From: an uncultured Acidimicrobiales bacterium
GTDB taxonomy: Bacteria; Actinomycetota; Acidimicrobiia; Acidimicrobiales; Aldehydirespiratoraceae
Length of the DNA stretch: 64,000 nucleotides
NCBI GenBank assembly: GCA_951812975.1
Contig: CATOTC010000001.1
Location: 1,024,001 to 1,088,000 of the forward strand
Reading direction: 5' to 3'
Shown: piece by piece, positions 1 through 62,476 of the stretch
Layout: each line of letters starts with the position of its first letter
How positions within the stretch are numbered: the first letter of the stretch is position 1
Notes under the pieces: model-generated
The model's input: the letters and a program-made list of their open reading frames with translations, nothing else
What the model was told of the DNA's origin: nothing
Databases searched by the model: none
Program-made: the position numbers and the translations under genes

Positions 1-1047
1 CCCGTCGCCTTTTCGCTCGTGCTCGACGGTTACCTCGACCAAGTCGTGGCCCAGAACAGCAGCTCGCTCAGCGAGGGCCGAGTACGGCGCTCTTATGCGG
101 TGAATTCGCCGACCTGCCGTGAGGGCGACGTCGTAGATCTTGGTGGGTCGGCCCGGGGTGAGATCTGCAACAACCAACTGCTTGGTCTCTCCCTCCTCGC
201 CGAAGTCGATCTCGAGGATCGAGCCGGCGTAACGGCCGCGGTTGTCCGCAACGGCCTGAGCGATGTGTATGTGTCCGAAGGCCAGATAGCCGTAAACACT
301 GTCAATGTGGGTCGGGTCGGTGGCGTACTCGGAGGAGACATGGATCTCCTTTTCGGTGGACGTACGCGCGCTGGATACATGCAGGTGGGACGCGAACACG
401 GCCACGTCAGCTGAAGTGTCGAAATCGACGAATGCCGACTTGGCGAGGAGGTCACAGATCTTTCGGACGCTGTCGGCGTAGGTCGCGTTGGCCGCAAGGA
501 TGTCGTCAAAATCGCCAAGTACGCGGTTTGCGTGAAGGAACGGCAGTCCGGCTACTCGCAGACGACCGCCCGCCTGGGTGGAGAGGGTCAGCACCGCTCC
601 GTGAGCGGCCGTGGTCGGACGGTGCATCACCCTGATGCGCGTCGGTGAGAACGCCAACGGATCGTACGAATTCTCGCTCGCCAGTTCAGGGACGGGATCG
701 CCGACGGCAACACCGAGCGTCTCCATAGCGATGGCCGAGTCGTGGTTGCCGGCTAGCACCGCCACAGGAGCGATCTCACCCAGTTCTCGAAGCGCTCGGA
801 TTGCCCGTCCGAAGTCGGCCATGGCCGGCCGGCCGCTGTTGAAGAGATCGCCGGTGTGGATGATCGCGTCGGGTTGCACGGCGACGGCAATTTCGATGAT
901 TTCAGCGATGACGCTGTCGTGGTCAACTTCACGCGGCTCGTCGCGAACGGTGACTCCAAGGTGCCAGTCGGACGTGTGCAGCACGCGCACAGCGGTCTCG
1001 GGACGGGCGGGCACGGCATCCGACGAGAGGGTGCGCAGAGAATTCAC
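1..1047 (-). CDS. SbcD/Mre11-type DNA metallophosphoesterase (C-terminus beyond window)
   Basis: Predicted metal-dependent nuclease acting on DNA ends. The frame runs from a GTG at 1047 to the window edge without a stop (349 codons), so the C-terminus is missing. Calcineurin-type phosphoesterase motifs appear in order: HTSDWHLG (residues 24-31), HTGDLFNSG (64-72), GNHDS (100-104), SHLH (220-223) and GHIH (258-261), which together supply the two-metal site. The GTG overlaps the stop of the upstream HerA-like gene as GTGA, so translation is probably coupled. In SbcCD and Mre11-Rad50 systems the partner is an SMC-type ATPase; if one exists here it would lie to the left of the window. The family is clear. 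The specific role (repair or defence) is inferred from neighbours. Confidence 0.85.
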   Translation of the reverse strand, partial: MNSLRTLSSDAVPARPETAVRVLHTSDWHLGVTVRDEPREVDHDSVIAEIIEIAVAVQPDAIIHTGDLFNSGRPAMADFGRAIRALRELGEIAPVAVLAGNHDSAIAMETLGVAVGDPVPELASENSYDPLAFSPTRIRVMHRPTTAAHGAVLTLSTQAGGRLRVAGLPFLHANRVLGDFDDILAANATYADSVRKICDLLAKSAFVDFDTSADVAVFASHLHVSSARTSTEKEIHVSSEYATDPTHIDSVYGYLAFGHIHIAQAVADNRGRYAGSILEIDFGEEGETKQLVVADLTPGRPTKIYDVALTAGRRIHRIRAPYSALAERAAVLGHDLVEVTVEHERKGDG

Positions 1048-3008
1048 TGTCGTCCCAGAATCTGTTCGGCATCGATGTCGTCGTCCGCCGAGCCCAGCAC
1101 CTCGGCGACGCGAGTGGCGTACGGCGGGTAGGGGAACCTCACGGGCACAGGGGCTGGCAGCATGGGCTGGCTCGTAATCATGGTGCCGGGCGGAACGATC
1201 TGGGCCCGCGCCCTCATCGTCTGGGGAAGGAACCCAAGCTCGGTGGCTTCAGACGCCTTGATCTGTCCTACTACCTCAAGCGAGGCGTTGTTCGTGATGT
1301 CACGGGCCACTCCTGACGGGTTCTGTTGTGCGCCGATAAGGATTACACCGAGTGACCGACCGCGTGCGGCAACATCAACCAGCAGGTGCTTGATCGGCGA
1401 TCCGCCCTGACGAGGCGCATACTTGTTGAGTTCGTCGAGCACGACGAAGGTCTTTCCGGTCGCGGTGGAGTTCTCGTGCTGCGACCAGATGTGGTGGAGG
1501 ACGGATGCGACCACGAAGCGCTGCGCGTCTGCGTGAAGCGCGTGGACATCGACCACCGAGACCTGGGAAGACAGGTCGACCTCGGTGAGCCCCGCCCGGA
1601 TCAGGCGCCGGAGCCGAGGGGTGGCCTTCCACAACCGCCGAACGAACGCTTGTTGGGTCGCTGCCGTTGTGCCCCCGCACCACATCGGGTCATAGCCGGG
1701 TGAGCCCTCGGTGACCATCCCCGACACGAACTCAACCAGACCGTCGAGGTCTTCGACCACGAGGCCGTCGCCAGCCAATCGAGGGTTGCTGACCTTGTAG
1801 GCACGAAACTGGCGGGCGGCCGACTCCCACGTCGACGGCACTGGGAGCACCTGACTGTCGGGGTTGACGAGCACGATACGCCCGTTGTCGTCGCCCGCTA
1901 GAGGCCAGGCCCAGCGGAGCAGTTGGAGTCGTACGACTTGCTCGATGAACGAGAGCTGCCCCGACTCAAGATCGTCAAACAGGTACTCCAGCAACCCGGC
2001 CTCAACAAACCGTGCCGGCGACCAGCCATACGGATGGGTGTCGCTGCGATCTCGGACAGAGATGTCAGCCACTGGATCATGTCCGGGGGCAGCCTCCTCC
2101 GCCGGCGCGTAGACGCCTACGTCGGTGAACGGACCCGGGTTCTCCCGACCCACGAGCATCTCCCACTGAGCCATCGCGTCCGCGCCGATCTCATCATTCG
2201 CGTGGAAGCGGTTGTTGGGCTTGTCGATCACGCACAGGTCGGAGCCTTTGACTGAGAACACCACCGCCCGGTCGTGGCTCGACCCGGCACGGGCGGTGGT
2301 TCCCCAGTCACTCTCGAAGAGCATGTAGAGGAGAAAGAGCGCGTAGCTGGTCTTGGTCGCGACGCCCGACTTGCCTGAGATCGACACGTGGGCACCGCGG
2401 TCGCCATTGAGGAAGCTGTATGGCAAGAAGACAAGCTCGTTGTTCATGTCGAGCCCAATGGGAATCGCCTCGCCGTCGGCCATTTTGTCGAGGAACAGCG
2501 CACGGCGGCGGTGAATGTCACCGGCGACCCAAATTGGTGCGCCTGACGACGGCGGCAAGTAGCGCTCGGGGTGAGTGCGGATCCAGGTCACCTCCGCCCG
2601 GCGGAACCGCTGTCCTGGCAGGGTCGACGCAGCGAGCCGGGCGGTATCGGTCGCCATCTCAGCGCCTTCGATCCGACCCGACACCTCGGTAACGATGCCG
2701 TAGTGGAACAGAACGGAATCGTCGACCAACCGCTGGGGTGACACCACGAACGTGTCGAGGGCGAGATCGACAGCGTCGTCCACGATCACGTTGGCGGTCT
2801 GCGTCGAAGCGTCGGTGGATGCATCGACGAGCCCCACTGGATCGCTGCCTGGGATCCCGTTGAGGTCTTCGAGGTGGTTGCGTCGGTCCTCACCAGTGAT
2901 GTCATACACCCTGGTGAGCGGAACGAACTCGACCTCGGCGGCTACATCCGTCACGAAGTCGGGCGAGACATCGAAGTCAGCAGGAGGGAATGTGTCTTGC
3001 TCGTTCAT
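1044..3008 (-). CDS. HerA-like (FtsK/HerA superfamily) DNA-translocating ATPase
   Basis: Predicted hexameric DNA pump that drives a partner nuclease; 654 aa. The N-terminal ~150 residues fit a HAS-barrel-like region. The P-loop is unusual: GKSGVATKT at 212-220 has one residue more than the classic GxxxxGKT spacing. Walker B is FVVLDELNKYAP with D525/E526. A sensor-like LIGAQQNP and an arginine-bearing region follow before the C-terminus. The gene overlaps the NurA-like gene upstream (ATG at 3008, stop of that gene at 3005) and the phosphoesterase downstream by 4 bp each. In archaea HerA works with NurA and Mre11-Rad50 in resecting DNA ends; the adjacent genes here reproduce that set. Other DUF87-type ATPases, such as those in DptFGH or DUF4297 systems, are more distant alternatives. 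Confidence 0.85.
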   Translation of the reverse strand: MNEQDTFPPADFDVSPDFVTDVAAEVEFVPLTRVYDITGEDRRNHLEDLNGIPGSDPVGLVDASTDASTQTANVIVDDAVDLALDTFVVSPQRLVDDSVLFHYGIVTEVSGRIEGAEMATDTARLAASTLPGQRFRRAEVTWIRTHPERYLPPSSGAPIWVAGDIHRRRALFLDKMADGEAIPIGLDMNNELVFLPYSFLNGDRGAHVSISGKSGVATKTSYALFLLYMLFESDWGTTARAGSSHDRAVVFSVKGSDLCVIDKPNNRFHANDEIGADAMAQWEMLVGRENPGPFTDVGVYAPAEEAAPGHDPVADISVRDRSDTHPYGWSPARFVEAGLLEYLFDDLESGQLSFIEQVVRLQLLRWAWPLAGDDNGRIVLVNPDSQVLPVPSTWESAARQFRAYKVSNPRLAGDGLVVEDLDGLVEFVSGMVTEGSPGYDPMWCGGTTAATQQAFVRRLWKATPRLRRLIRAGLTEVDLSSQVSVVDVHALHADAQRFVVASVLHHIWSQHENSTATGKTFVVLDELNKYAPRQGGSPIKHLLVDVAARGRSLGVILIGAQQNPSGVARDITNNASLEVVGQIKASEATELGFLPQTMRARAQIVPPGTMITSQPMLPAPVPVRFPYPPYATRVAEVLGSADDDIDAEQILGRQ

Positions 3009-4036
3009 TGGTTGGCTCCAGAGATGATTACGTCACGGGCAGCACGTGTTGCATAGGCGACACGGCCGAGAGTCTGGCTGAGGCGGCGCTCCAGATTCCT
3101 GACCGGTGTCAGATTGACGGGGGCGCGGGGATCGCGATGGTGAACGCCGGCGTATGCGGGAAGGATCGTGGCGAGCACCGATGCGCGTTCTGTCACGCTG
3201 GCGATTCCTGCGGAGGATGGAAACTCGAGCCGCGCAACTCCTGACCAGGGCGATGCGCCCGGGGCGGGGTTTCCCACGCGCGTGTAGCACGTGTATCGAT
3301 CAGATCCGGCGGTGTACATCCGGGTGCGCTCGCCAATCGCGAGCCTCGGAACGGCGGCGTGTGCGGCCACAGGCAGGATTCGGCGGTGGTGCGACTTCAC
3401 ATAACCGGCCACAAGCCCGTGGAGTGCACGAATGCGGTTGAGTGGGCCATCGAGCACGACGTTCCAGCCCGCGTCAGCCGCGTCGAGAGCGAGCTCGCCT
3501 TCGGCTCGGCGCATACGGTCCTGAAGGTGCGCTAAGCACATGTCGGGGTCACTATCCGTGATCGGCGCTGAGGCCCATGAGTACCCCGTGCGCTGCGAGA
3601 TGATGTCGCCGGTCTGACCTCCACCCCAGATGGCAAGGCGCCCGACGCGGATACCAGAGAACTCGGCCGTACCGCCGGGCCTTATCGTCACCGCACCCAC
3701 GGCATAAGCACCAGCGACGCCAGGGACTCGGGTGCCGCTCTCTGCATGTTCGGCCCACACGAGCAACTCCGCTCGACGGGTCCCGTCGACAAAGGCAAGC
3801 GGTACCGAAAGCGGTGCGATGCGGGCGACGTGGCCATCGCCGGATTCGGCTTGCTCGACATCTTCCGAAGCATCGGTTTCGAAGTCGGCGCTCGTTCCGT
3901 ACGGCGGTGCCCATCCTTCGCTGAACACACGCCAACCAGGATCCGTGGGCGTGACCGTCAACCGGCTATCGTCGGCGGACTCGTTAGGCGCGATGCGGGC
4001 CGTGGAGTCTCGGTCGTTGCTTTGTTGTTCGGTCAT
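3005..4036 (-). CDS. NurA-like nuclease
   Basis: Predicted 5'-3' single-strand exonuclease/endonuclease partner of HerA. The NurA acidic-site motifs are visible in order: FVDGTRR (Asp at ~84), VVLDGPLNRIRALHG (Asp at ~196) followed by GYVKSHHRR, then RLEFP (Glu at ~271) and a C-terminal HHRDPRAPVNLTPV stretch. The first ~65 residues are acidic and of low complexity. The frame can also open at a GTG at 4099. I prefer the ATG at 4036 because it overlaps the stop of a short ORF as ATGA, the spacing used throughout this operon, and no better ribosome-binding site is seen at 4099. The family call rests on motifs and on HerA adjacency, so it is good but not certain. Confidence 0.7.
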   Translation of the reverse strand: MTEQQSNDRDSTARIAPNESADDSRLTVTPTDPGWRVFSEGWAPPYGTSADFETDASEDVEQAESGDGHVARIAPLSVPLAFVDGTRRAELLVWAEHAESGTRVPGVAGAYAVGAVTIRPGGTAEFSGIRVGRLAIWGGGQTGDIISQRTGYSWASAPITDSDPDMCLAHLQDRMRRAEGELALDAADAGWNVVLDGPLNRIRALHGLVAGYVKSHHRRILPVAAHAAVPRLAIGERTRMYTAGSDRYTCYTRVGNPAPGASPWSGVARLEFPSSAGIASVTERASVLATILPAYAGVHHRDPRAPVNLTPVRNLERRLSQTLGRVAYATRAARDVIISGANQ

Positions 4037-4224
4037 GGCGTCGTTCCAACCGCTCGTCGCAGCGGGTCTGTAGGTAACAGTACTGAGCTGCTGTGACACG
4101 TCCGCTGGGCGTCTTCATGTCGCGCGCAGAACCAATGCCCGGGTCCGTAGAAAGACTCGGGTCGGAGCTTGCGTCTGATGCTTGTCCAGTCGTTGTCCAT
4201 CCTTGCGTCAATAGCGACCTTCAT
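4033..4224 (-). CDS. possible small ORF (63 aa) between the HelD-like and NurA-like genes
   Basis: A short frame starting at ATG 4224, 50 bp after the HelD-like stop, and ending in ATGA over the proposed NurA start. It holds several Cys and His residues around GHWFCARHED. The +1 frame over the second half (about 4120-3984) also reads like protein, so a frameshift in an older, longer gene is possible. No family is recognised. The position and the ATGA overlap are the only support; it may simply be leader sequence for the NurA-like gene. Confidence 0.3.
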   Translation of the reverse strand: MKVAIDARMDNDWTSIRRKLRPESFYGPGHWFCARHEDAQRTCHSSSVLLPTDPLRRAVGTTP

Positions 4225-4274
4225 TGCCGACGTAACCCGACGTCACGTGCTCTCGAATGACCGCATCGTAGAGG

Positions 4275-6311
4275 CTATAGGCGGGGTGGGCGGAGACCGC
4301 GGGGAAAGGGTCGGGCATGGACGATGGTAAGTTCCTTGTTAGCGCGGGTCAGGCTCGTATAGAGAACACCCTGCCTGCCGACATTCTCGGGAAAGTCCCC
4401 GGGTTCTACGACGACCGCTGCGTCGAATTCAAGCCCGCGCGCCTCGTCGGGGTGAAGGATGACGAAAGTCGTCTCATCCCGCGACCAGCTGTGCTGATGG
4501 TGACCGCGAACCCAGCCGCGCGTTCGGAGTTCAGCCGATAACGGCCTCGGCTCGGTGGAGATAACCGCCACAGTCCCCGTGTGCCGGTTGGTGAGATCGA
4601 TTGCCGCGGCCACGGCCGCAGATGTGCGTTCGTCTGCGGGCACCTTCGTAACGGTGGGGTGCGGCCCGTCTCGCAGCGCCTGCTCCCCTCTTTCGCCGCG
4701 AGGCAGCAACTGGTTTGCGAACCGGAGGATCTGCCGCGTCGACCGGTAACCATTCTGGAGCACTTGGATGTTGCAGTACCCGGTGTCGTCAGTCATTTCG
4801 AGATCCTCTGCGAGTTCCTGCCAACCTGCCGCAGTCCAGTCGGATCTCCGCTGATTCATGTCGCCAAACAGCGAAAGCGAGCCGCCGAGTTCTAGCAGGG
4901 AACTAGTGAGAATGCGCCACTCAAGCGGACGAACATCCTGCGCCTCGTCAACTATCAGGTGCCCAACCAGCTCACCAATGACCCTAGGGTCGAGCGACAA
5001 AGCAACCGTGGCAAGCATCGGGAGATAGCGGGTCCGTCCAGCGATCTCGTTCCAGCTCGGGAGAGCTCGGAGCCAGGCCAGGATCTCAGGGTTTCCGATC
5101 TCGGATTCGCTGGCTTGCTTCATGGCCTCGACGACGCGACGAACACGCTGCTCCATACGGCCCGAAATGGGGCGATCAGCCATTGACTTCACGAAGCCAT
5201 CGATCGCCCTGCCGAGGTCCCAGGACGATTCAATTCGGTCTATCTGTCCGGGCTTGGGAATGGACCGGAGCCCGGCGACTCCCTTAAGAAGGGAGGGGAG
5301 ACTGAGGACCTGGATCTCGGACTCGGGTTCCTTCAACTCAGAGATGACCGGCTTTATGTGCTCGACGTATTGATCGGACGGTCCGACAATCGCGACACGG
5401 GCGACCCGTTCAGACTTTCGCGCGTCGCTCGTGAGGTACACAGCTCTGTGTGCAGCGACAACGGTCTTGCCCGTGCCAGGCTGTCCCTGCACCACCAGCC
5501 CTCGGTTGCCGGCGGCGGCCACGAGCAGGTACTGGTCAGGTTGCATCGTTGGCAGCACCATCCCCATACGGCCCTGCTTCGGCATCTGCATGACCATGTC
5601 GACCGCATCAGCCGCACGCAGATGTCCCCGGCGAGTCTCAACTTCTCCCACGGTCTCAGCGACGGACGGCTCGGACAAATCGGACTGCTCGAATCGCTCG
5701 GACAACTCGGACCGCTCGATTGTCGGCCGCTTGTCGAGTTCGCCGGCCTTCGGTTCCGCCGGCGCTTGCTCCTCCTCAGTCGGACGGACCGTCTGTTGGC
5801 GTCGTATCGGAGCTTTCGGGATATCGAGGGCACGTGCCTGGCCCTCAAAGGGGTCCACAACACCGGTCTCAATCTCATCGGAGTAATCGACAAGGTCGTT
5901 GCGCCTAAGCACGAACGTCCGCCGCCCCTTTATGGATGACGCAATCTCGTGGGTCGACGAGCGACCCTCAAAATACAGGCTTGCGATTGGCGCAGCCCAG
6001 TTGACCGCCTCGAACCCGTCCATCGTCACGCGCCGACCAGCGATGTAGAAGGTCTGGTCCATCATGTCGGAGTATGGGTGGTCGTCCTCGAGTGCTACTC
6101 GGCCGATCACGGCAGCGGTCGCCCCGCGGTCTATGCCCGGTCGAGGGAGCGAGGAGGTGGTCCAATAGTGACTCTGGACGACGGTGATCTGCCTGAAGAG
6201 GTGGGGCTGCTCAGCAAGGCGGCGTTCGATCTCATTCAGATACTGCTCATTGACGGCGCGCTCGGCATCCAAGACAGCTTGGTGGCCTTGATCGTCTGTC
6301 CTTTCAGTCAT
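4275..6311 (-). CDS. HelD/UvrD-like superfamily 1 ATPase
   Basis: 678 aa. The N-terminal part matches the HelD layout: a charged helix, then TFYIAGRRVTMDG (87-99) and NWAAPIASLYFEG (104-116), which corresponds to the DWRAP element of helicase IV/HelD. A low-complexity Glu/Ser linker spans ~175-225. The motor follows: Walker A GQPGTGKT (276-283), Walker B HLIVDEAQD (451-459), FGDMNQ (482-487), YRST (522-525), EARGLEFD (623-630) and YTSLTRA (651-657). HelD proteins remove or recycle RNA polymerase from DNA, while UvrD-type relatives unwind DNA; which applies here cannot be told from the sequence. Its ATG overlaps the stop of the SNF2 gene by 4 bp, so both are almost certainly co-translated. Confidence 0.85.
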   Translation of the reverse strand: MTERTDDQGHQAVLDAERAVNEQYLNEIERRLAEQPHLFRQITVVQSHYWTTSSLPRPGIDRGATAAVIGRVALEDDHPYSDMMDQTFYIAGRRVTMDGFEAVNWAAPIASLYFEGRSSTHEIASSIKGRRTFVLRRNDLVDYSDEIETGVVDPFEGQARALDIPKAPIRRQQTVRPTEEEQAPAEPKAGELDKRPTIERSELSERFEQSDLSEPSVAETVGEVETRRGHLRAADAVDMVMQMPKQGRMGMVLPTMQPDQYLLVAAAGNRGLVVQGQPGTGKTVVAAHRAVYLTSDARKSERVARVAIVGPSDQYVEHIKPVISELKEPESEIQVLSLPSLLKGVAGLRSIPKPGQIDRIESSWDLGRAIDGFVKSMADRPISGRMEQRVRRVVEAMKQASESEIGNPEILAWLRALPSWNEIAGRTRYLPMLATVALSLDPRVIGELVGHLIVDEAQDVRPLEWRILTSSLLELGGSLSLFGDMNQRRSDWTAAGWQELAEDLEMTDDTGYCNIQVLQNGYRSTRQILRFANQLLPRGERGEQALRDGPHPTVTKVPADERTSAAVAAAIDLTNRHTGTVAVISTEPRPLSAELRTRGWVRGHHQHSWSRDETTFVILHPDEARGLEFDAAVVVEPGDFPENVGRQGVLYTSLTRANKELTIVHARPFPRGLRPPRL

Positions 6312-9300
6312 TCGAGTGTCACCTCAGCGACGCAGACCGCTATCGTCTCGATGTCCATGTGACCCTTGCGGCTCTGATCGAGCCGTTCCACAGCTTCCCA
6401 CAGTAGGCGGTCCTGATTTGACCGCTGGGCTTCCTGGAGGTGGATCACCCCGGTGCTCCCTCTTTCCCTCAGAGTCTCGATGCGACGCTCGATCTGGGCA
6501 ACCTTCCGATCGTGGGTCTCCCGCAGGCTGATGCGCCGGGACTCAACGAGCGCGGTGTTCATCGCTTGGCGCCGATGGAATTCTTCCTCGTGTCGCTTCC
6601 GGAGTGAACGCTCGGCCTCCCCGAGATGCACGTCAAGGTCCACGTCAATCCCCGTCTCGTGCTCTTCAAGTTGAGACTCCGCGAGCGCAGCCAATACCGT
6701 CGATCCCACGGGCTCCCCCGTCAGGATTCCCGTGTCGAGGTCAACCGCCGCGGTCCAGAACTCGGCCGACGGCTGGAGCCCGTCCCACCTAGCCAAAGCC
6801 ACCAAGACGAAATACGAGCCCGGCGTGACAGAACCGCTCTTGATTCGAATGTGACCAAAGCGCGCCTGGGACGAACCAGGCACGCGGAGCGCCGCCCGGA
6901 CCAGCGGATTGTTGGCAGAGAGGAGGCGCTGGCCTGTCATGCGCGCGTGATCCGGATCGAGACAGAGCACCAGGTCACGTTCATCGAGCATCGCCTTGGC
7001 CAGCCTGTCGATCTCGGTTCGTGATCGCTCACCTTCAGACTGCACACCTCGTAGGTGCTGTTCCATCGCTGCGGTGCCTCGGAACGTGAGAAGGGTGCCA
7101 CCGCTGTTCACCTCACAGTGTGCACCGGGTGCGCTAGCGGCCCAATCGCGCAGCAGGTGAACCAACTCGGGTTGGCCGATGTATCGGCCGGACTTGAGGA
7201 GGTCTTCCTCCAGGCCGTCGATCTCTGCCGTGTCTGTCGAGGACAGGAAGGAGGCTGCTGCTTCGACATCGTCGATAGCGAGCCGCTGTTCCTCGATTGC
7301 CGCCAGCGTCTCGTTTAGACGGCGTTCACGTTCGGTTCTTGTCAATGTGAAGTCGAACATTGCGCGGCGCAGATCTCCCATCCGCGACTGGAGGATCGGC
7401 TCGAGCTCACCTATGGAGTCCGTGAAGACGCCGATCCGCTGATGCACTCGTTCGATGATGTCGGATTCGATAGTTCCAGGTGTGTGGAAGTTAAGAACAC
7501 GGATCTTTTCCGCGACCTGGCCAAATCGGTCGACCCGGCCGATCCGTTGCTCGACCTCCATTGGATTCCAAGGGAGGTCGTAGTTGACGACGGCTGAGCA
7601 GAACTCAAAATCGAGGCCTTCGCTCGCGACTCGGCTCGCAAGGAGAACGTCGAAGTCGTTCTCGCGGAATCTTCGCATGATGTCGTGCCGGGCCTCGCGG
7701 CCGACCCCGCCATGCATGACTGCGATGCGGAAGTCCGCGTTGAGACGTTCGCTGAGGTACGCCAACGCGCGCCGGGAGAAAGTGAACACAAGAACTCGTC
7801 GGCTGTCCTCCACGACCGGTCGGAGCTGTTCGATGAACGCGTCGAACTTGGTGTCGACGTCGCCGAGGTTGTGCGCGAGCTCCAAGACCTCCTCAGGGGG
7901 ATTCGTGATGTCCCATGAGATATCGTCGTCTGTTCCATCCAGGTCTTCGTCCCCGAGTTCGTCTCGCCAGTTCAAGACCCGGTCCCGGGCAGCCGGAAGG
8001 CACGTGCTTGCAAGGCGAAGGGGCATCTGGGTCACGAAACCGACCGGCAGCCCCAATGCTCTGGCCCGAGCGATCTGCCATCGCTCAAATGCGGCGTAGA
8101 ACTTGGCCTCCGGGTCTGTCCACTCGACGGGAATCTGGATTGCTTCTCTCACCGCCTTCCTCTCCTGCACCTCGACCTTGCGCGTGCGAGTTACGACGGC
8201 GGAGAGCGCGTGGAGCTGACCGATAAGCCGCTTGGCTTGGGCGATTTGTGCTGGTAGCAACTTCTCACTTTGGAGAAGCGTTACCAGTTCGCGGTACTCC
8301 GGGCGGCCAGAGACGGCAGGGCCGAAGTCCAGTGACTCAACTTCCTTCAGCCGCCTAAGGCGCTCGACATTCGTCACGTCCGTGTCGAAGAAGCTAGCGC
8401 TCAGAGCGTGGAGCACAGCGTTGGGCTCCAACCGCTGCTCTAGGACGAATCGGTTGTCGAACTCGCCGGGGGCTAGGAGCTGGAGCAGGCTGAAGAGGTC
8501 TTCGTTCCCCAGGTTCAGCGGAGTCGCCGACAGAAATATTAACGCGTCAGCCCAGTCGGACAGCAGAGCCCCGAGCGCGTGGCTCCTGGTTTCTGAATTG
8601 CGGAACGCGTGCGCCTCGTCGACGATGACCAAATCGAATCTCGGGGCGAGCTCGGCGAGATCCTCGAGGCCGGTCCATACTCGCAGCCTTTCGAGACTGC
8701 ATACGCCCGCAAATCTCGATGGCATGCGGTCCTCGTCGACTCGTTCCAACAACTCATCGAGCCGGGGCCGGTCGAGGTCCTGAAGCTCGTAGTCGAACCG
8801 TTCACGCATCTCTGCGCGCCACTTCGGAACGAGCATCGAGGGACATACGACGAGAACGCGGTTAGCCTGCCGCCTGGCATCGAGTTCGGTCCAAACAAGA
8901 CCAGCTTCGATGGTCTTCCCGAGGCCGACCTCGTCGGCTATCAGAAGTCGGAGCGAGCCTGTCTCAAGGAGTCGGATCACAGGGCGGAACTGATACGCGC
9001 GAAAGATCGTCTTGGTGGCACGAAAGGAATAGACCGTGTCCGTGAGTTGCTCTCGAAGCTTCGCTCGAGTGAGCGTGGCCGCGAAACGGTCAGCATGGGC
9101 CGGAGGGCGGGCAATCCACTCGTGGGGATCGTCGTCTATCACCGGAGGCTGGAGATCGCGTTCAGGGACGGTGACGGTGCGTCCGTCGACTCGGATGCGG
9201 TACCACCACTGGCCGCGGTCGTAGTCCCGGCCGCGCACGAACGCCTCCTGCCCGGATCCCCGCGTGAAGGCTGGTGAGTTGACCTCATAGAGCGGCGCGG

Positions 9301-9628
9301 CAATGTGCTCTGCATCGTCCCACCAAGCGCCCATCCAGTCGTAGGCTGAGAGGAGCGGATGCGACTCCGCCGTCCAATCGGTCCGGGCAGGGGCAGCCGG
9401 GGCGCCGCCTTCGATTATGACCATCACCTCGACCTGTGCTCCGTCATCGAACACGTAGATACCCATCGGTAGCTGAGCCTCATCGGCGTCACGCCTGCGC
9501 GCCGCGGTGGAGATGGAAACCGAGTCGGGGACGCGCTCACCCACGACCAACATCCGATGGGGACGCACGGAACCAACCTCATGATCTGCGTCCCCCACCA
9601 CCGGGTGGTATCGCAAGTAACCTGTCAC
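6308..9628 (-). CDS. SNF2/RapA-like DEAH helicase
   Basis: 1106 aa with a GTG start. The N-terminal part contains a small beta-rich segment around QWWYRIRVDGRTVTVPERDL (140-159) that resembles the Tudor/SH3-like region of RapA-type proteins. The motor has DEVGLGKT (232-239), DEAH (337-340), SATP (367-370), a helicase C-terminal lobe with MHGGVGREAR (639-648) and the SNF2 arginine-finger motif QRIGRVDRFGQ (694-704). The C-terminal ~350 residues are rich in charged helices. DISARM DrmD and RapA belong to the same broad family, but no DrmA, DrmB or methylase lies here. It is the first gene of the operon, preceded by a serS terminator and a plausible promoter. Confidence 0.88.
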   Translation of the reverse strand: MTGYLRYHPVVGDADHEVGSVRPHRMLVVGERVPDSVSISTAARRRDADEAQLPMGIYVFDDGAQVEVMVIIEGGAPAAPARTDWTAESHPLLSAYDWMGAWWDDAEHIAAPLYEVNSPAFTRGSGQEAFVRGRDYDRGQWWYRIRVDGRTVTVPERDLQPPVIDDDPHEWIARPPAHADRFAATLTRAKLREQLTDTVYSFRATKTIFRAYQFRPVIRLLETGSLRLLIADEVGLGKTIEAGLVWTELDARRQANRVLVVCPSMLVPKWRAEMRERFDYELQDLDRPRLDELLERVDEDRMPSRFAGVCSLERLRVWTGLEDLAELAPRFDLVIVDEAHAFRNSETRSHALGALLSDWADALIFLSATPLNLGNEDLFSLLQLLAPGEFDNRFVLEQRLEPNAVLHALSASFFDTDVTNVERLRRLKEVESLDFGPAVSGRPEYRELVTLLQSEKLLPAQIAQAKRLIGQLHALSAVVTRTRKVEVQERKAVREAIQIPVEWTDPEAKFYAAFERWQIARARALGLPVGFVTQMPLRLASTCLPAARDRVLNWRDELGDEDLDGTDDDISWDITNPPEEVLELAHNLGDVDTKFDAFIEQLRPVVEDSRRVLVFTFSRRALAYLSERLNADFRIAVMHGGVGREARHDIMRRFRENDFDVLLASRVASEGLDFEFCSAVVNYDLPWNPMEVEQRIGRVDRFGQVAEKIRVLNFHTPGTIESDIIERVHQRIGVFTDSIGELEPILQSRMGDLRRAMFDFTLTRTERERRLNETLAAIEEQRLAIDDVEAAASFLSSTDTAEIDGLEEDLLKSGRYIGQPELVHLLRDWAASAPGAHCEVNSGGTLLTFRGTAAMEQHLRGVQSEGERSRTEIDRLAKAMLDERDLVLCLDPDHARMTGQRLLSANNPLVRAALRVPGSSQARFGHIRIKSGSVTPGSYFVLVALARWDGLQPSAEFWTAAVDLDTGILTGEPVGSTVLAALAESQLEEHETGIDVDLDVHLGEAERSLRKRHEEEFHRRQAMNTALVESRRISLRETHDRKVAQIERRIETLRERGSTGVIHLQEAQRSNQDRLLWEAVERLDQSRKGHMDIETIAVCVAEVTLE

Positions 9629-9665: not shown

Positions 9666-9695
9666 ATGAAAGTGTGTAGGACAATGAAGTGTCAA
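9666..9695 (-). promoter_or_regulatory. candidate promoter of the HerA-NurA operon
   Basis: On the minus strand a perfect TTGACA (9695-9690) is followed after 18 bp by TTTCAT (9671-9666), about 38 bp ahead of the SNF2 GTG. The -35 box coincides with the T-run of the serS terminator, and the -10 is a 4/6 match only. Confidence 0.35.
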
Positions 9696-9730
9696 AACTA
9701 TGGAGACCAATCACGAAAGTGCCGGTCTCC
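9694..9730 (-). terminator. intrinsic terminator of serS
   Basis: GGAGACC (9712-9718) pairs with GGTCTCC (9724-9730), and a smaller inner CAC/GTG pairing tightens the loop. Read in the serS direction the hairpin is followed by ATAGTTTTG. It lies 64 bp past the serS stop and separates serS from the HerA-NurA operon. Confidence 0.65.
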
Positions 9731-9793
9731 GTTGGCGAGATCGACCGGAGAACTGCTGGTGAAACCCAGCCAATCCCGAGGTCAATGGGCCGA

Positions 9794-11083
9794 TCAACTG
9801 CGTGGCTCGATCTTGGTGAGGCCGCCTAGGTAGGGGTGCAGGGCTTCGGGTAGCTCGATTGAGCCGTCGGGTTGGCGGTAGGTCTCCACGATCGCGGCCC
9901 AGACTCGTGGGACCGCCAGGGCCGAGCCGTTGAGGCTGTGGACGAACCGGGTGCCCTTCGTGCCCACGGAGCGATAGCGGATGTTGGCGCGGCGGGTCTG
10001 ATAGTCGGTGCACCACGAAACCGAGGAGACCTCGAGCCAGCGGTCAGCGCCGGGAGCGAACACCTCAATGTCGAAGGTGCGTGTGCCAGCACTGCTGATA
10101 TCTCCGCAGGCCAGGTCGAGCACCCGGTGGACCAGCCCCAGGTCGCGGATGGCGCTCTCGGCCCGGTCGAGGATCTCCATGTGCACGTCGTGGCCCTGCT
10201 CGGGGGTACAGAACGCATACATCTCGACCTTGTCGAACTCATGGACCCGCAACAGGCCGCGCGTGTCGCGTCCCGCGGCGCCGGCCTCGCGCCGGTAGCA
10301 CGAGGTGTGGGCCATCAGCCTCATCGGCAGTTCGTCCTCATCGAGGACCTCTCCGCTGAACATCGAAGTGAGCGACACCTCGGAGGTCGGAATGGCCCAC
10401 AGGTCGTCGCGTTCGATGTGGTAGGCGTCATCGGCGAACTTCGGCAGGTGACCGCTGCCGATCATCGTGTCGGACTTCACCAGGGTCGGTGGCCGCACTT
10501 CCTCGAAGGCGTCACGGTTGCGTTCGAGGCCGTAGGCGATCAGCGCTCGCAACAGTCGCGCGCCGTCGCCGCGGTACATCACGAACATCGAGCCGGAGAG
10601 ACGCACCGCGCGGTCGACGTCGAGTATCTGCAGCTGTTCACCGATCTCCCAGTGGGGAACCTTCTGGTAGTCACCGAAGGCGTCGGGGTCCAAGCCTGAG
10701 TTTCGGACCTCCACATTGCCCTCTTCGGTCAAACCGTCAGGAGCATCGGGCGAAGGCATGTTGCTGACGTTTAGCAGCAGGTCTCGAAGCTCAGCAGCGA
10801 GTCGCTCGCAGCGCTCATCAAGGATTTTCTCGGTGGTCCCCAGTGACCGACTGTGATCGGCCAGAGCCTTCGCCTCGTCGGCCTTGCCCTGGCCGTGCAG
10901 CGCACCGACCTGCTTGGAGGTCTGCCGAATCTCCGAGCGAATCTCATCTCGCTCGGTGGAGGCAGCGCGCAGCTGCGCGTCGATCTCAACGATCTCATCG
11001 ATCGACGAGGTCGGTGCTCCGCGGCGCGCGACAGCCGACTTGACAGCCTCTGGGTCCGAACGGATCAGCTTGATATCGAGCAT
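9794..11083 (-). CDS. serS: seryl-tRNA synthetase
   Basis: Charges tRNA-Ser with serine (class II synthetase, cytosolic). 429 aa, the usual length. The N-terminal coiled-coil arm that grips the tRNA long variable arm spans about residues 25-110. Motif 2 reads CYRREAGAAGRDTRGLLR and is followed by HEFDKVEMYAF; motif 3 is LNGSALAVPRVWAAIVE with its arginine. The start MLDIKLIR is typical of the family. It is a single-gene unit with its own terminator, flanked by tandem repeats upstream and the HerA-NurA operon downstream. Confidence 0.97.
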   Translation of the reverse strand: MLDIKLIRSDPEAVKSAVARRGAPTSSIDEIVEIDAQLRAASTERDEIRSEIRQTSKQVGALHGQGKADEAKALADHSRSLGTTEKILDERCERLAAELRDLLLNVSNMPSPDAPDGLTEEGNVEVRNSGLDPDAFGDYQKVPHWEIGEQLQILDVDRAVRLSGSMFVMYRGDGARLLRALIAYGLERNRDAFEEVRPPTLVKSDTMIGSGHLPKFADDAYHIERDDLWAIPTSEVSLTSMFSGEVLDEDELPMRLMAHTSCYRREAGAAGRDTRGLLRVHEFDKVEMYAFCTPEQGHDVHMEILDRAESAIRDLGLVHRVLDLACGDISSAGTRTFDIEVFAPGADRWLEVSSVSWCTDYQTRRANIRYRSVGTKGTRFVHSLNGSALAVPRVWAAIVETYRQPDGSIELPEALHPYLGGLTKIEPRS

Positions 11084-11190: not shown

Positions 11191-11308
11191 CCGCCCGCGG
11201 CCTCGCGGCCCCGCCCGCGGCCTCGCGGCCCGTGAGCGAAGCGAACAAGAGCGGGAGCCGAGCGAGGCGAACAAGAGCGGGAGCCGAGCGAAGCGAACAA
11301 GAGCGGGA
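11191..11308. repeat. GC-rich tandem repeats between serS and ctaG
   Basis: Two perfect tandem 20-mers (11191-11210 and 11211-11230, ccgcccgcggcctcgcggcc) are followed by three 26-bp units starting at 11234, 11260 and 11286, each built on gagcgaagcgaacaagagcg with one or two changes. A related unit recurs at 16617-16690 inside ctaC, and a degenerate one near 20865-20895. The array lies downstream of ctaG and upstream of serS. Confidence 0.9.
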
Positions 11309-11321
11309 AATAAAGCGTGCA

Positions 11322-13410: not shown

Positions 13411-15398
13411 TCAGCGTCGTCAGCATCGCCATCGCCGTCATCGTCGTGGTCGTCGTCGTGGTGGTCGTGGGAAGCATCGGGGTCATCGACGGGCTCGAGG
13501 GCCCAGGCGAAGATGCCCATGCCGACCAGCAGGCCGCCCGGAACGCAGAGCCAGAGGTTGAAGATCAGTCCGTAGCCGATCAACGGCAGACCCACGGCCA
13601 GCACCAGCGGCCAGAACGACGGCGCCGGAAGGTGTACACCCTTGGCTGAGCCGTCCTGGGCTGCTTCCTCGACCGTGGCGATCTGCACAACCTTGCCGTT
13701 GTCATCGAAGCCGTACTTGCGGTGCCACCACTCGTCGAGACCGTCCACGGTGGGGACTTCGTCGAAGTTGTGCTCCGGAACGGGCGACGGGATCATCCAC
13801 TCGAGGCTGCGCGCATCCCAGGGGTCAGGACCCGGCGGCGGCAGATCGGCTGCCTCCCGTTTCGACTTCCAGACATTGTGGAACAGGACCAGAACCGAGA
13901 GCGCGATTATGAACGAGCCGACGGTCGCCACCATGTTCCAGAACTCGAACCCGAACCCGGCCGAGTAGGTGTCGATACGACGGCTCATCCCCTGCAGTCC
14001 GAGAATATGCATGGGCCCGAACGTCAGGTTGAAACCGATGAGCATCGACCAGAAATTGATCTTGCCGCGGCGCTCGTTGAGCATGTAGCCGAAGATCTTC
14101 GGCCACCAGAAGTAGAGGCCGCCGATCAACCCGAGCACACCACCACCGAAGATCACATAGTGGAAGTGGGCCACGATGTAGTAGGTGTCGGTCTGTTGAG
14201 TGTCGGCCGGGGCAATCGCGTGGGTCACGCCCGACAGACCACCGATCGTGAACATGGCCACGGTTCCCACCGCGAAGAGCATCGCCGTCGTGAAGCGGAT
14301 CTGTCCGCCCCACATGGTCGCCATCCAGTTCAATACCTTCACGCCGGTCGGTACCGCGATGAACATCGTCGACAGTGAGAACGCAGCCACCGAGATCGGA
14401 CCGATACCGGACACGAACATGTGGTGGGCCCACACCCCCCATCCCATGAATCCGATCGCGATCCCCGAGAACACCATGAACGTGTAACCGAATATCGGTT
14501 TGCGGCTGAACGTCGGGATCACTTCAGACACGACGCCGAAGGCAGGCAGAACGATGATGTAGACCTCAGGGTGTCCGAATATCCAGAACAGGTGCTGCCA
14601 CAACAACGGGTCCGCGCCCATGTCCGGATTGAAGAAGCTGGCGTCGAACAGCCGGTCGAACATCAACAAGAACAGAGCGACGGTGATGACCGGCAACGCG
14701 AACAGCAGCAGGAACTGGGTGATCAGCAGCATCCAAGTCAGGACCGGCATGCGGAACAGGTCCATTCCCGGCGCTCGCATATTGAGACAGGTGACGATCA
14801 GGTTGATGGCCGAGACCAGTGAGGCGATCCCGGCGATCAGCAGACCGATCGCATAGAAGTCCACACCATGGCTCGGCGAGAAGGTCAGGCCGCTGTTGGG
14901 CGAGTAACAGAACCAGCCGCAGTCGGCACCGCCGCCGCCGACGATCCAGGAGCTGTTCAAGAAGATCGCTCCCGACAGCCAGATCCAATAGGACAGCGCA
15001 TTGAGGCGCGGGAACGCCACGTCTCGGGCACCGATCTGAAGCGGTATCAGGTAGTTCGCGAAGGCCGCCGCCAACGGCATGATGAACAGGAACACCATGG
15101 TGACGCCATGCATGGTGAACACCTGGTTGTAGACGTCGGCCGAGAGCACGCCGCCGTTGGGAACCGCCAACTGCAGGCGGATCAGCAGGGCCTCGACACC
15201 GCCCACCACGAAGAAGACCATGGCGGAAACGCCGTACATGATCCCGATCTTCTTGTGGTCGACGGTACTCAACCAGTCCCGCCAGCCCCTGCCGCCCTGC
15301 GGTCGGGTGAGCACGCCGAGCGGTCGCTCCGCAATGGCCTCTCTACCGGATTCAAGCTCCAGAGGGCCCTCAGTCACGGGTTTCTCGGTGATGGTCAT
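13323..15398 (-). CDS. ctaD: cytochrome c oxidase subunit I (canonical)
   Basis: Catalytic subunit of an A-type haem-copper oxidase: reduces O2 to water and pumps protons. All metal ligands are present: FTMHG (low-spin haem), FGHPEVY (CuB His with the cross-linked Tyr), WAHHMF (CuB pair) and VAHFHYV (haem a3 and haem a). At 691 aa it is long: after the usual 12 helices there are a ~100-residue soluble stretch, two further hydrophobic helices and a His/Asp-rich tail (HDHHDDDHDDD) ending in Ala/Pro repeats. It starts 2 bp before the ctaC stop region, in a continuous operon with ctaC and ctaE. Confidence 0.97.
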   Translation of the reverse strand: MTITEKPVTEGPLELESGREAIAERPLGVLTRPQGGRGWRDWLSTVDHKKIGIMYGVSAMVFFVVGGVEALLIRLQLAVPNGGVLSADVYNQVFTMHGVTMVFLFIMPLAAAFANYLIPLQIGARDVAFPRLNALSYWIWLSGAIFLNSSWIVGGGGADCGWFCYSPNSGLTFSPSHGVDFYAIGLLIAGIASLVSAINLIVTCLNMRAPGMDLFRMPVLTWMLLITQFLLLFALPVITVALFLLMFDRLFDASFFNPDMGADPLLWQHLFWIFGHPEVYIIVLPAFGVVSEVIPTFSRKPIFGYTFMVFSGIAIGFMGWGVWAHHMFVSGIGPISVAAFSLSTMFIAVPTGVKVLNWMATMWGGQIRFTTAMLFAVGTVAMFTIGGLSGVTHAIAPADTQQTDTYYIVAHFHYVIFGGGVLGLIGGLYFWWPKIFGYMLNERRGKINFWSMLIGFNLTFGPMHILGLQGMSRRIDTYSAGFGFEFWNMVATVGSFIIALSVLVLFHNVWKSKREAADLPPPGPDPWDARSLEWMIPSPVPEHNFDEVPTVDGLDEWWHRKYGFDDNGKVVQIATVEEAAQDGSAKGVHLPAPSFWPLVLAVGLPLIGYGLIFNLWLCVPGGLLVGMGIFAWALEPVDDPDASHDHHDDDHDDDGDGDADDAELAAAAPVAPGDSSALAAAAPAVPGEGGA

Positions 15399-56856: not shown

Positions 56857-57147
56857 TTGAACACCCGAGAGCCGGCCAACGTGGAATTTGATGCGAATCG
56901 TCCCTACAGGCTGCACGAACGTGTGGCCCTGCGACCGGAACCGTTCGGCGCGCTCGCCTACCACTACGACAACCGCCGCCTCAATTTTCTCAGGGCGCCC
57001 GAGCTTGTGACGCTCGTTGAGAGCCTCGGGGAGCACTGCAGCGTCCGCGAGGCCTTCGAATCGGCGGGCCTGGATGACCGCCGCTGGCCGTCATTCGAGA
57101 GGGCCCTCGCATCGTTGGCCGCCTCCGACTTCCTGGTGGCGGTATGA
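56857..57147 (+). CDS. mftB: mycofactocin chaperone MftB
   Basis: 96 aa RiPP-recognition protein that presents MftA to MftC. Typical text: PYRLHERVALRPEPFGALAY and DNRRLNFLRAPELV. The start listed is a TTG at 56857 directly after GGAG; a GTG at 56881 (VEFDANRPYRL) has better spacing and may be the true start. Ends in ATGA over mftC. Confidence 0.93.
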   Translation: MNTREPANVEFDANRPYRLHERVALRPEPFGALAYHYDNRRLNFLRAPELVTLVESLGEHCSVREAFESAGLDDRRWPSFERALASLAASDFLVAV

Positions 57148-58355
57148 CCGACACCGCTGTCGCGCCGACCCCCGCTTCAGCGCTTGAGGTCCCCTCTACG
57201 CCAACACCGGGCAGTCTGGTTTTGTCGCCCGTGAAGCGCAGCGGCCTCGCCGATCAGATGAAGGCGGGGCTCGACGCCCCCATCTGCTTGACCTGGGAGT
57301 TGACATATGCCTGCAACCTGCAGTGCATCCACTGTCTCAGCTCGTCGGGCAGGCGCGACCCTCGCGAGCTCACCACCAAAGAAGCCGAAGCAGTGATCGA
57401 CGAACTTGAGCGGATGCAGGTCTTCTACATCAACATCGGCGGGGGCGAGCCGACTGTCCGCAGCGACTTCTGGCATCTTGTCGACTACGCCACCGATCAC
57501 GGTGTCGGCGTCAAGTTCTCAACGAACGGTTCACGCATCGACGCCTCCGTCGCGCGCCGACTAGCGGCCTCCGACTACATCGATGTGCAGATCTCGATCG
57601 ACGGCGCAGACGCCGAAACCAACGATGCGGTGCGCGGCGAAGGTTCCTTCGAGGTCGCTGTGCAGGCAATGAACCACCTGCAAAATGCAGGTTTCAAAGG
57701 CTTCAAGATCTCGGTGGTGATGACCCGCCACAACATCGCCCAAGTCGACGAGTTCGAAGCCATGGCCGCCCGCTTCGATGCCGAGTTGCGGCTTACCCGT
57801 TTCCGCCCATCGGGGCGGGGCGCCGACAGCTGGCATGAACTCCATCCCACCGATACTCAGCAACGCCAACTGTACCGATGGTTGCTCGACCGGCCCGAGG
57901 TGCTCACCGGCGACTCGTTCTTCCATCTGTCCGCCCTCGGCGAGCCGCTGCCGGGACTGAACCTGTGCGGGGCTGGCCGGGTGGTGTGCCTGATCGACCC
58001 GATCGGCGATGTCTACGCCTGCCCCTTCGTGCTCCACGACGAGTTCCGAGCGGGCAGTGTCTGTGACGAGGGCGGATTTCAACGGGTTTGGCAACACAGC
58101 GACCTGTTCGCCGAGCTTCGTGAGCCGCAATCGGCCGGGGCCTGCGCATCGTGCGGCCATTTCGATGCCTGCCAGGGAGGCTGCATGGCCGCCAAGTTCT
58201 TCACCGGAATCCCCCTCGACGGACCCGACCCCGAATGCGTCCTGGGCCACGGCGAACCACTCGTCAACGCCGCTGGCGCAGCCCGCCCCTCGCCGGCTCT
58301 CGACCATTCCCGCCCGTCCCCCGTCAAGTTCCTGGCTCGCAACCACCGCGCTTGA
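57144..58355 (+). CDS. mftC: mycofactocin radical SAM maturase MftC
   Basis: 403 aa. Radical-SAM cluster Cys57-x3-Cys61-x2-Cys64 (CNLQCIHC), GGGEP (99-103), and a C-terminal SPASM domain with CGAGRVVCLIDPIGDVYACP and CASCGHFDACQGGC. It decarboxylates the terminal Tyr of MftA and cross-links it to Val. Overlaps mftB by 4 bp. Confidence 0.96.
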   Translation: MTDTAVAPTPASALEVPSTPTPGSLVLSPVKRSGLADQMKAGLDAPICLTWELTYACNLQCIHCLSSSGRRDPRELTTKEAEAVIDELERMQVFYINIGGGEPTVRSDFWHLVDYATDHGVGVKFSTNGSRIDASVARRLAASDYIDVQISIDGADAETNDAVRGEGSFEVAVQAMNHLQNAGFKGFKISVVMTRHNIAQVDEFEAMAARFDAELRLTRFRPSGRGADSWHELHPTDTQQRQLYRWLLDRPEVLTGDSFFHLSALGEPLPGLNLCGAGRVVCLIDPIGDVYACPFVLHDEFRAGSVCDEGGFQRVWQHSDLFAELREPQSAGACASCGHFDACQGGCMAAKFFTGIPLDGPDPECVLGHGEPLVNAAGAARPSPALDHSRPSPVKFLARNHRA

Positions 58356-58394
58356 ACGCGCAGATTTCGGTGGGGGGCGGTACGGTCACAAATC

Positions 58395-59561
58395 GTGAGC
58401 TGGTTTGAGACCGTCGCCATCGCCGAGCAGCGTGCCCGCAAGCGCATCCCCAAGTCGGTCTACGGCGCCCTGGTGGCCGGGGCGGAGGCCGGCGTGTCGA
58501 TGCGCGACAACACCGCCGCTTTCGACGAACTGGGGTTCCGGCCCGTAACCGCAGGCCAAGCAGCAAACCCCGAGATCGCCGTCAACATCATGGGCCAGCC
58601 CTCGGCGATGCCGGTGATGATCTCGCCCACCGGCGTGCAGGCCGTTCATCCACAAGGTGAAGTGGCCGTAGCCCGAGCCGCAGCGAACCGGGGGATCCCG
58701 ATGGGGCTCAGTTCCTTCGGAGGCAAGCCGATAGAGGAGGTCGTCGCTGCCAACCCGCAGACCTTCTTCCAGATCTACTGGGCCGGAGACCGCGACTTCA
58801 TGCTCGCCCGCATGGAGCGCGCCAAGACCGCCGGGGCGGTCGGACTGATCCTCACGCTCGACTGGTCGTTCTCCCACGGCCGCGACTGGGGCAGCCCCCA
58901 CATCCCCCAATCCTTCGCCCCCAAAGAGATCCTGCCGCACGCCTTCGAGGTCCTGGCGAAACCGGCGTGGGCCTGGTCGTGGCTGCGCCAAGGCACGATT
59001 CCTCGGCTTCGGGTACCGAACTTCGCCGGTGTCGACGAACAGGCGCCGCTGTTCTTCGAAGCGTACGGCACCTGGATGACGACGCCCCCGCCGACCTGGG
59101 AGGACGTTGCGTGGCTGCGTTCTGAGTGGGACGGCCCGTTCATGGTCAAGGGAATCGCCAGAGCCGACGAAGCCCGCCGGGCGGTCGATGCGGGCGCCAC
59201 AGCCATCTCGGTGTCGAACCACGGCGGCAACAATGTCGACAGCGCCCCCGCCTCGATCCGGGTGCTCCAGGAGATAGCGAGCGCGGTCGGCGGCGAGATC
59301 GAAGTCGTTCTCGACGGCGGAATCCGGCGCGGCAGCGATGTCGTCAAAGCCTGTGCCCTCGGCGCCGACGCCGTGCTGATCGGCCGGGCATACCTGTGGG
59401 GTCTGGCAGCCAACGGGCAGGCGGGTGTGGAGAATGTGCTCGACATCCTCAACGCCGGGATCACCGCGACCCTGCGCGGGATCGGCAAGAGCTCGATCAC
59501 CGAGTTGACCCCCGCAGACGTGGTCGTGCCAACCGGCTTCTCCTCTCCCGAGCTTGGCTGA
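58395..59561 (+). CDS. mftD: MftD, FMN-dependent alpha-hydroxyacid-dehydrogenase-like enzyme
   Basis: 388 aa from GTG 58395. Oxidises the released dipeptide (AHDP) in mycofactocin maturation. FMN-dehydrogenase motifs: ISPTGVQAVHPQGEVAVARA, WDGPFMVKGIARADEARRA, SVSNHGGNNVDSAP (catalytic His) and VVLDGGIRRGSDVVKA. Lies 39 bp after mftC. Confidence 0.95.
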   Translation: MSWFETVAIAEQRARKRIPKSVYGALVAGAEAGVSMRDNTAAFDELGFRPVTAGQAANPEIAVNIMGQPSAMPVMISPTGVQAVHPQGEVAVARAAANRGIPMGLSSFGGKPIEEVVAANPQTFFQIYWAGDRDFMLARMERAKTAGAVGLILTLDWSFSHGRDWGSPHIPQSFAPKEILPHAFEVLAKPAWAWSWLRQGTIPRLRVPNFAGVDEQAPLFFEAYGTWMTTPPPTWEDVAWLRSEWDGPFMVKGIARADEARRAVDAGATAISVSNHGGNNVDSAPASIRVLQEIASAVGGEIEVVLDGGIRRGSDVVKACALGADAVLIGRAYLWGLAANGQAGVENVLDILNAGITATLRGIGKSSITELTPADVVVPTGFSSPELG

Positions 59562-61336: not shown

Positions 61337-62476
61337 ATGAAGACTCGCGCTGCGGTGCTGTATGGAGCGCATCAACCATGGCAAGTCAAAGAAGTGGAAC
61401 TTGATGATCCTCGGCGGGGCGAGATCCTCGTCAAGACCCACGCGGCCGGTCTCTGCCACTCCGACGAACACATGGTCACCGGCGACCTCGGCTCAGCCGA
61501 CGCACCGGGCGGCTCCTCCCTGCTGCCCGTCATCGGCGGGCACGAGGGATCCGGTGTGGTGATCGAGGTCGGCCCCGAAGTCACCGATCTGGAAGTCGGC
61601 GACCACGTTGCGGTGTCGTTCGTGCCGGCCTGCGGAAAGTGCCGGTGGTGTGCCTCGGGGCAACAGAACCTGTGCGACCTCGGTGCGGGCACGCTCGGCC
61701 CGGGAATGATCACCGACGGGCGGAACGCCCACACCGGTCCCGACGGAGAGACGGTCAACACGATGGCCAAGCTCGGGACCTTCGCCGAGCACATGCTGCT
61801 CTGTGAGGATTCGGTCATCAAGGTCGACAAGGACGTGTCTCTGATCGCCGCGGCGCTGGTGAGCTGCGGGGTCGCCACCGGCTTCGGTTCGGCTGTCAAC
61901 CGTGCCGAGGTCTCAGCGGGTGACACCGTGGTGGTCGTCGGCTGCGGCGGGATCGGTTCCAACGCTCTGCAGGGAGCGAAGGCCGCAGGTGCAAAGACGA
62001 TCGTTGCGGTCGATCCAGCGGAGTTCAAGCGCGAGAAGGCGTTCGAGTTCGGGGCGACACACACGTCTTCGTCGATGGAGGAGGCGATGGAGTTGGTGGG
62101 GGGCCTGACCCATGGGGTGATGGCCGACAGCGTGATTCTGTCGCCGGGTGTCGTGACCGGCGATCTGGTAGCGCCTGCCCAGTTTCTGACACGCAAGGGC
62201 GGCACCATTGTGATCACCGGCCTGGCCCCGATGGTGCAGATGGACGTGCAGCTGAACCTCTTCGAGTTCGCCATGATGAACAAGCAGCTGCGAGGCACGA
62301 TCTACGGCTCTGACAGTCCCCGTCGGGCGGTGCCCCATCTGCTGTCGATGTATCAGGCCGGTCAGCTCAAGCTCGATGAGCTGGTCACCCAGACCTACTC
62401 GCTCGATGAGATCAACGAGGGCTACCAGGACATGCGCGACGACAAGAACATCCGCGGCGTGATCGTCTTCGACTAG
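61337..62476 (+). CDS. NDMA-dependent (mycofactocin-linked) zinc alcohol dehydrogenase
   Basis: 379 aa medium-chain dehydrogenase. Catalytic zinc region GLCHSDEH (Cys40) and GGHEGSG (His69/Glu70); structural zinc Cys99, Cys102, Cys105, Cys113; Rossmann GCGGIGSNALQGAKAAGA. This subgroup keeps its NAD bound and needs mycofactocin (or NDMA in vitro) for reoxidation. 221 bp separate it from the SDR, so it probably has its own promoter. Confidence 0.93.
   Translation: MKTRAAVLYGAHQPWQVKEVELDDPRRGEILVKTHAAGLCHSDEHMVTGDLGSADAPGGSSLLPVIGGHEGSGVVIEVGPEVTDLEVGDHVAVSFVPACGKCRWCASGQQNLCDLGAGTLGPGMITDGRNAHTGPDGETVNTMAKLGTFAEHMLLCEDSVIKVDKDVSLIAAALVSCGVATGFGSAVNRAEVSAGDTVVVVGCGGIGSNALQGAKAAGAKTIVAVDPAEFKREKAFEFGATHTSSSMEEAMELVGGLTHGVMADSVILSPGVVTGDLVAPAQFLTRKGGTIVITGLAPMVQMDVQLNLFEFAMMNKQLRGTIYGSDSPRRAVPHLLSMYQAGQLKLDELVTQTYSLDEINEGYQDMRDDKNIRGVIVFD

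Follow-up and report, generated by a model that had tools for sequence, protein, structure and literature searches.

The window analysed here is a 64,000-nucleotide stretch (G000:C1:1024001-1088000) of the 3.0-Mb genome of an uncultured Acidimicrobiales bacterium, and most of the named organisms with related proteins belong to the Acidimicrobiia. Its left end, together with the sequence beyond it (locus L003), holds the following features, given from right to left:

6308-9628, minus strand: SNF2-family motor (RapA/DrmD-like), 1106 aa, first gene of module 2
4275-6311, minus strand: HelD-like SF1 motor, 678 aa, second gene of module 2
4037-4274, minus strand: junction between the modules, 238 bp, containing most of a 63-aa ORF
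3005-4036, minus strand: NurA nuclease, 343 aa, first gene of module 1
1044-3008, minus strand: HerA-type DNA pump, 654 aa
1-1047, running on leftward (in full L003:5638-7047), minus strand: Mre11/SbcD phosphoesterase, 469 aa
L003:2601-5657, left of the window: Rad50/SbcC-like protein, 1018 aa
L003:1751-2542, left of the window beyond Rad50: AbiTii (PADLOC, 5.7e-33)
Left of the window past AbiTii, strand opposite to the operon genes: PIN-domain gene
Left of the window past AbiTii, strand opposite to the operon genes: AAA_14/DUF4143 ATPase

By the listed starts, SNF2/HelD, NurA/HerA and HerA/Mre11 overlap by 4 bp, and Mre11/Rad50 by 20 bp. The original prediction of 4-bp overlaps nearly throughout holds at the first three of these junctions but fails between HelD and NurA, which do not overlap and lie 238 bp apart. 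A consensus scan of this junction listed no promoter on either strand, and an alternative GTG start of nurA at 4099 would add 21 aa. The possible tiny ORF that had also been proposed is present (63 aa, 4224-4033) and overlaps nurA by 4 bp at its end, but it is probably no gene, because no conserved counterpart was seen upstream of nurA in the four loci compared (L037, L034, L114 and L115). Elsewhere in the window, at 57144-59561 and 61337-62476, radical-SAM, MftD-like dehydrogenase and alcohol dehydrogenase genes, spotted by eye in the translations, seem to belong to a mycofactocin cluster.

Identity of the locus proteins

The 343-aa protein is a NurA: solved NurA structures are matched both by its family profile and by its predicted fold. 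The placement of 3005-4036 in NurA, originally set as a test, is thereby confirmed. By itself the protein has no match in Pfam, PADLOC or NCBIfam at 0.001. A profile made from a 40-sequence alignment (A1) reaches the NurA of Deinococcus radiodurans (7f6d) at 1.4e-51 and Thermotoga TM1739 (1zup) at 1.4e-19, and 26 of the 40 aligned members, the window protein not among them, match the Pfam NurA family (PF09376) at E<=1, the best at 2e-6. The AF2 model of the window protein (pLDDT 87.3) retrieves the same two structures, 7f6d and 1zup, as the top two Foldseek entries (7f6d_G at 6.7e-15). D84, E179 and D196 are invariant across the alignment, and we take them to be the acidic active-site residues known from archaeal NurA.

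The adjacent HerA has no Pfam match at 0.001, and matches D. radiodurans HerA (7f6d_B) at 4e-90 in phmmer, aligning over residues 48-637 of 654; with nurA next to it, it qualifies as a NurA-partner HerA. The remaining HerA chains in the PDB are reached at E 0.039 and 0.58 only. The P-loop pattern as scanned is unmatched, but the stretch GVATKTSYALFLL is common to the window and D. radiodurans proteins. Mre11 matches Metallophos in Pfam (6.3e-13), carries the phosphoesterase motifs and passes the SbcD model TIGR00619 (94.9 bits, cut-off 77.65). The gene to the left of the window is Rad50/SbcC-like by its AAA_23 domain, CPVC hook, signature and Walker B; its score against SbcC TIGR00618 (179.2 bits) is below the curated cut-off of 478.5. 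The motif scan found sequence motifs intact in the locus proteins, the Rad50 zinc hook CPVC included.

The SNF2 protein has the Pfam domains SNF2-rel_dom and Helicase_C with intact motifs, and RapA chains are its closest solved structures (1.2e-34). Its top PADLOC match is the DrmD model PDLC02623 (420 bits), and it misses the NCBIfam DrmD cut-off (297 bits, cut-off 610). The HelD-like protein has its nearest solved relative in mycobacterial HelD, and its model aligns to HelD 8q3i over residues 244-677. It scores at most 121.4 bits in NCBIfam, under every HelD/HelR cut-off (419-1100 bits), and its PADLOC v2 matches are weak (best 35 bits). HelD is an RNA-polymerase recycling factor whose arms enter the polymerase channels; residues 160-241 of the window protein are modelled with pLDDT <50. 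Another HelD-like protein, P0178 (1120 aa), has HEAT/PBS-lyase-type repeats among its listed Pfam domains. Overall, the SNF2, HelD-like, NurA, HerA and Mre11 assignments of the original prediction are borne out by profiles, folds and motifs, and the Rad50/SbcC gene that it expected left of the window is there.

The island beside serS and its neighbourhoods

Both modules and AbiTii lie in a block of about 16.6 kb beside serS. The congeners G400 and G263 are collinear with this genome on both flanks. In G263 one match ends at window position -6774 and the next begins at 9792, with 7 bp between them; in G400 the corresponding positions are -6774 and 9810, with 25 bp between them. Because the flanking matches nearly abut, some 16.6 kb with all the listed genes are absent from both congeners. 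We infer that the block was gained in this genome and not lost in both congeners. The serS neighbourhood differs in G453, and few genes match in G428 and G369.

Several marks of mobility were sought. A foreign base composition was rejected, since island and flanks have the same GC content (0.62-0.63 in the island). The island edges in L002 and L003 and the surroundings of serS in the window hold no tRNA. Carriage by known vectors was likewise discarded: NurA has no match among 50,697 phage records and matches in 4 of 72,556 plasmid records, all with <40% identity, and the HelD-like protein matches 53 plasmid records, none covering 80% of the query. A 23-26-bp repeat occurs in three tandem copies at window 11234-11311, next to serS, and again at 16640 and 52633 with 2-3 mismatches, when none would be expected by chance.

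In a maximum-likelihood NurA tree, the window protein groups with L037, L114, L115, L034 and L035 in a subclade of six loci, window included (the starred rows; 100/100). Defence-type genes adjoin four of these six. The window has AbiTii, and the DUF4143 ATPase of its island also matches the candidate-defence model PDC-S01 in PADLOC (1.1e-70), while the PIN gene has no PADLOC match. In L114 (taken as Iamia majanohamensis), rad50 is immediately followed by genes for SIR2 and HerA. In L115 (taken as Ilumatobacter coccineus), PglW and PglX are encoded on the opposite strand to nurA, some 2.4 kb upstream of it, and two small ORFs lie in the interval. L035, a Pseudonocardia MAG, has on one strand a TerB gene (SngA model), a BrxC/D-type ATPase, an SngC-model helicase, an SMC-like gene and nurA. 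The first three of these appear, by their models, to be a Shango-type set; Shango is described as a tested antiphage system of TerB, ATPase and helicase genes (PMC10250203). The SngC-like helicase (L035:3933-7184) has a C-terminal exonuclease domain (RNase_T/DEDDh). No defence neighbour was seen in L034 and L037, where flanks are short or one-sided, and none was recognised in the NurA relatives L116, L133 and L146 (about 40% identical).

As a control, 98 of the 159 flanking ORFs from 28 NurA loci outside the window subclade were searched with PADLOC at 1e-25. They matched 22 families, each through a single ORF; SoFic was among them, and the others are presumably mostly protein kinases. The 28 ORFs from nine closer loci, two of which (HerA of L114 and PglW of L115) are third neighbours added with their matches already known, matched 34 families, with PglW, SngC, SIR2 and HerA among the matches listed. 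Under a strict rule of two genes per side, the counts are 3/26 (SngC, SIR2 and a PD-Lambda-2-like protein of L039) against about 2/98 in the control. Defence genes are thus commoner around the closer NurA loci in a clear direction, with small numbers and in a comparison that was not blind.

The SNF2-HelD pair has neighbours of its own. Flank genes picked by eye, as a subset, from its 13 loci include HsdR and HsdS (L138), a type IIG/DrmMI-like protein (L157), a IIG/type I-like protein (L155) and matches to the candidate-system models PDC-M26A (L152) and PDC-S01 (L156). An HNH protein in L153 and one further flank gene each in L152, L134 and L151 had no PADLOC match. The pair is a compact and recurrent unit with restriction-type neighbours.

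Two modules and a decayed resident set

The distributions of the two modules differ. Among the best 80 of 306 named NurA candidates, spread over Actinomycetota, Chloroflexota, Acidobacteriota, Gemmatimonadota and others, HerA, Mre11 and Rad50 are all present along with NurA in 53 loci and two of the three in 10 more, many of the remaining loci being short contigs. None of the 80 has a HelD match, and three have SNF2 matches of only 35-52 bits. Conversely, the HelD subfamily (E<=1e-40) occurs in 12 of the 397 genomes of the order, at 13 loci, and SNF2 lies directly upstream on the same strand in all 13 (in G263, G411 and G382 HelD lies at the contig end or no more than 112 bp from it); only in the window does nurA adjoin the pair. 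Eight of the 12 genomes have no NurA match at E<=1e-15, G263 and G477 carry only a resident-type NurA, and a HerA search at E<=1e-10 finds nothing in G402, G411 and G382. NurA of any type is found in 46/397 genomes of the order (E<=1e-15), and the window type (at least 63% identity) in four: G000, G297, G113 and G647. NurA-HerA-Mre11-Rad50 is a bacterial four-gene block, and SNF2-HelD is a separate pair.

It might still be thought that all six genes form one integrated machine, in which SNF2 and HelD clear proteins ahead of the NurA-HerA-Mre11-Rad50 nuclease, as the original prediction of a single fused operon supposed. All the genes share a strand, with 4-bp overlaps within each module, and the pair is present in two of the four order genomes with window-type NurA (G000 and G647, on another contig in the latter). 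Yet the 238-bp gap separates the modules, and homology to the near relative L037, where an alcohol dehydrogenase lies upstream of nurA, stops near window 4100. Moreover, window-type NurA is missing from 10 of the 12 genomes that carry the pair, and L035, L037, L114 and L115 carry the NurA block without the pair upstream. Since the pair and the block are apart in every other locus with a readable flank, a single fused machine is not supported: gene order is kept within each module but not across them, and we consider joint function very improbable.

A stronger competitor arises from the decay of a resident set elsewhere in the genome. The resident locus L158 (G000:C1:611500-631400) is collinear with the G263 locus and partly so with that of G477. 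What it retains, at about 9694-10606 and 13735-13986, are fragments of nurA in three frames and the C-terminal 84 residues of rad50; this stretch has no match to herA or mre11. At the corresponding locus, G263 keeps an intact four-gene block. The resident NurA proteins of G263 and G477 are 34% and 32% identical to that of the window, with Mre11 nearby in both, and the only SbcD match in this genome at E<=1e-10 is the island copy. The resident block has been lost often, and here just the island copy remains. This decay is the main support for regarding the four-gene block as a DNA-repair set, whose acquired copy took the place of the resident one and prepares chromosomal breaks for recombination by resecting them, in line with the description of D. 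radiodurans HerA-NurA as an end-resection machine (PMC9960219, PMC12977600). However, three genomes of the same genus (G400, G453 and G653) and two of the same family (G369 and G428), five of the eight, have no SbcD match, so the set is dispensable. In addition, the closest relatives of the island copy adjoin varied defence-type genes and more distant copies rarely do. Repair replacement thus seems to us unlikely, if clearly better placed than the six-gene machine.

Proposed role and relation to known systems

We consider it probable that the 16.6-kb block is a mobile module or island that degrades DNA ends in defence against invading DNA, such as that of phages. The DNA-end-processing theme of the original prediction is upheld, and of its two proposed outcomes defence becomes the more likely because of the empty site in two congeners and the defence-type neighbours of the closest relatives. 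In these families, HerA is described as a hexameric pump that cooperates with NurA, and DNA ends are the site of action of Mre11-Rad50. The predicted mechanism starts with Mre11-Rad50, which would bind DNA ends, whether blocked or linear, and open them. A HerA hexamer would then load there and drive the duplex into a dimer of NurA for cutting of both strands. AbiTii might serve as a back-up toxin. SNF2-HelD could be an independent ATP-driven motor pair that strips proteins from DNA, a role suggested by kinship to RapA and HelD.

In archaea, the role of HerA-NurA is debated: it may resect breaks in the cell's own DNA or destroy DNA from outside (PMC12977600, 2026). In the same source, Thermococcus kodakarensis HerA-NurA is described as degrading both strands of dsDNA and as unable to make the 3' overhangs that recombination requires, and an antiviral function is proposed for it. 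The published view for D. radiodurans is one of resection (PMC9960219). A bacterial branch that comes and goes beside defence genes would make this question testable in ordinary bacteria. More tentatively, the archaeal-type end machine may have such a mobile branch, acting as a plug-in DNA-destroying effector of defence islands, whose partners in turn would be Shango, SIR2-HerA, Pgl/BREX and a new antiphage pair, SNF2-HelD.

A literature search found no published account of this bacterial arrangement, although an earlier description may exist. Iyer et al. 2004 reportedly treated bacterial HerA genes. NurA appears only in the reference list of PMC11291478 and is absent from PMC2743648; in the main text of PMC12839542, neither NurA nor Mre11 is named.

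None of the named defence systems in PADLOC and NCBIfam fits the island, as originally anticipated. DISARM comes to mind through the DrmD match of the SNF2 protein. Membership was nevertheless rejected, since this protein falls below the DrmD equivalog cut-off, its partner is HelD-like, and no DrmB, DrmC or methylase was found in the seven island proteins scanned, among the PADLOC matches listed (the best 25 of 45 for SNF2). RapA and HelD, the closest solved relatives of the pair, both recycle RNA polymerase (PMC7749165, PMC7749167, PMC8666675), whereas the genes described here form a recurrent two-gene pair whose HelD-like member is below all HelD/HelR cut-offs. The antiphage systems SIR2-HerA and HerA-DUF4297 similarly couple a HerA-family ATPase to an effector enzyme, but in the window the partners of HerA are NurA and Mre11-Rad50. 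BREX-related capture (BRC) and HerA/FtsK capture, in which a HerA pump is proposed to feed invader DNA to a nuclease (PMC12839542), share the principle, and the island differs from them in having no PglZ, BrxC or TGT. D. radiodurans HerA-NurA (7f6d) provides the closest solved relatives of both window proteins; that species is described as lacking Mre11-Rad50 (PMC12977600), whereas all four genes are together here. Finally, the nurA-herA-mre11-rad50 operon of Sulfolobus, Pyrococcus and Thermococcus unites the same four families. The set described here differs from it in being bacterial, in having Deinococcus proteins as its nearest solved NurA and HerA, in facing an empty site in congeners, and in lying alongside defence-type genes.
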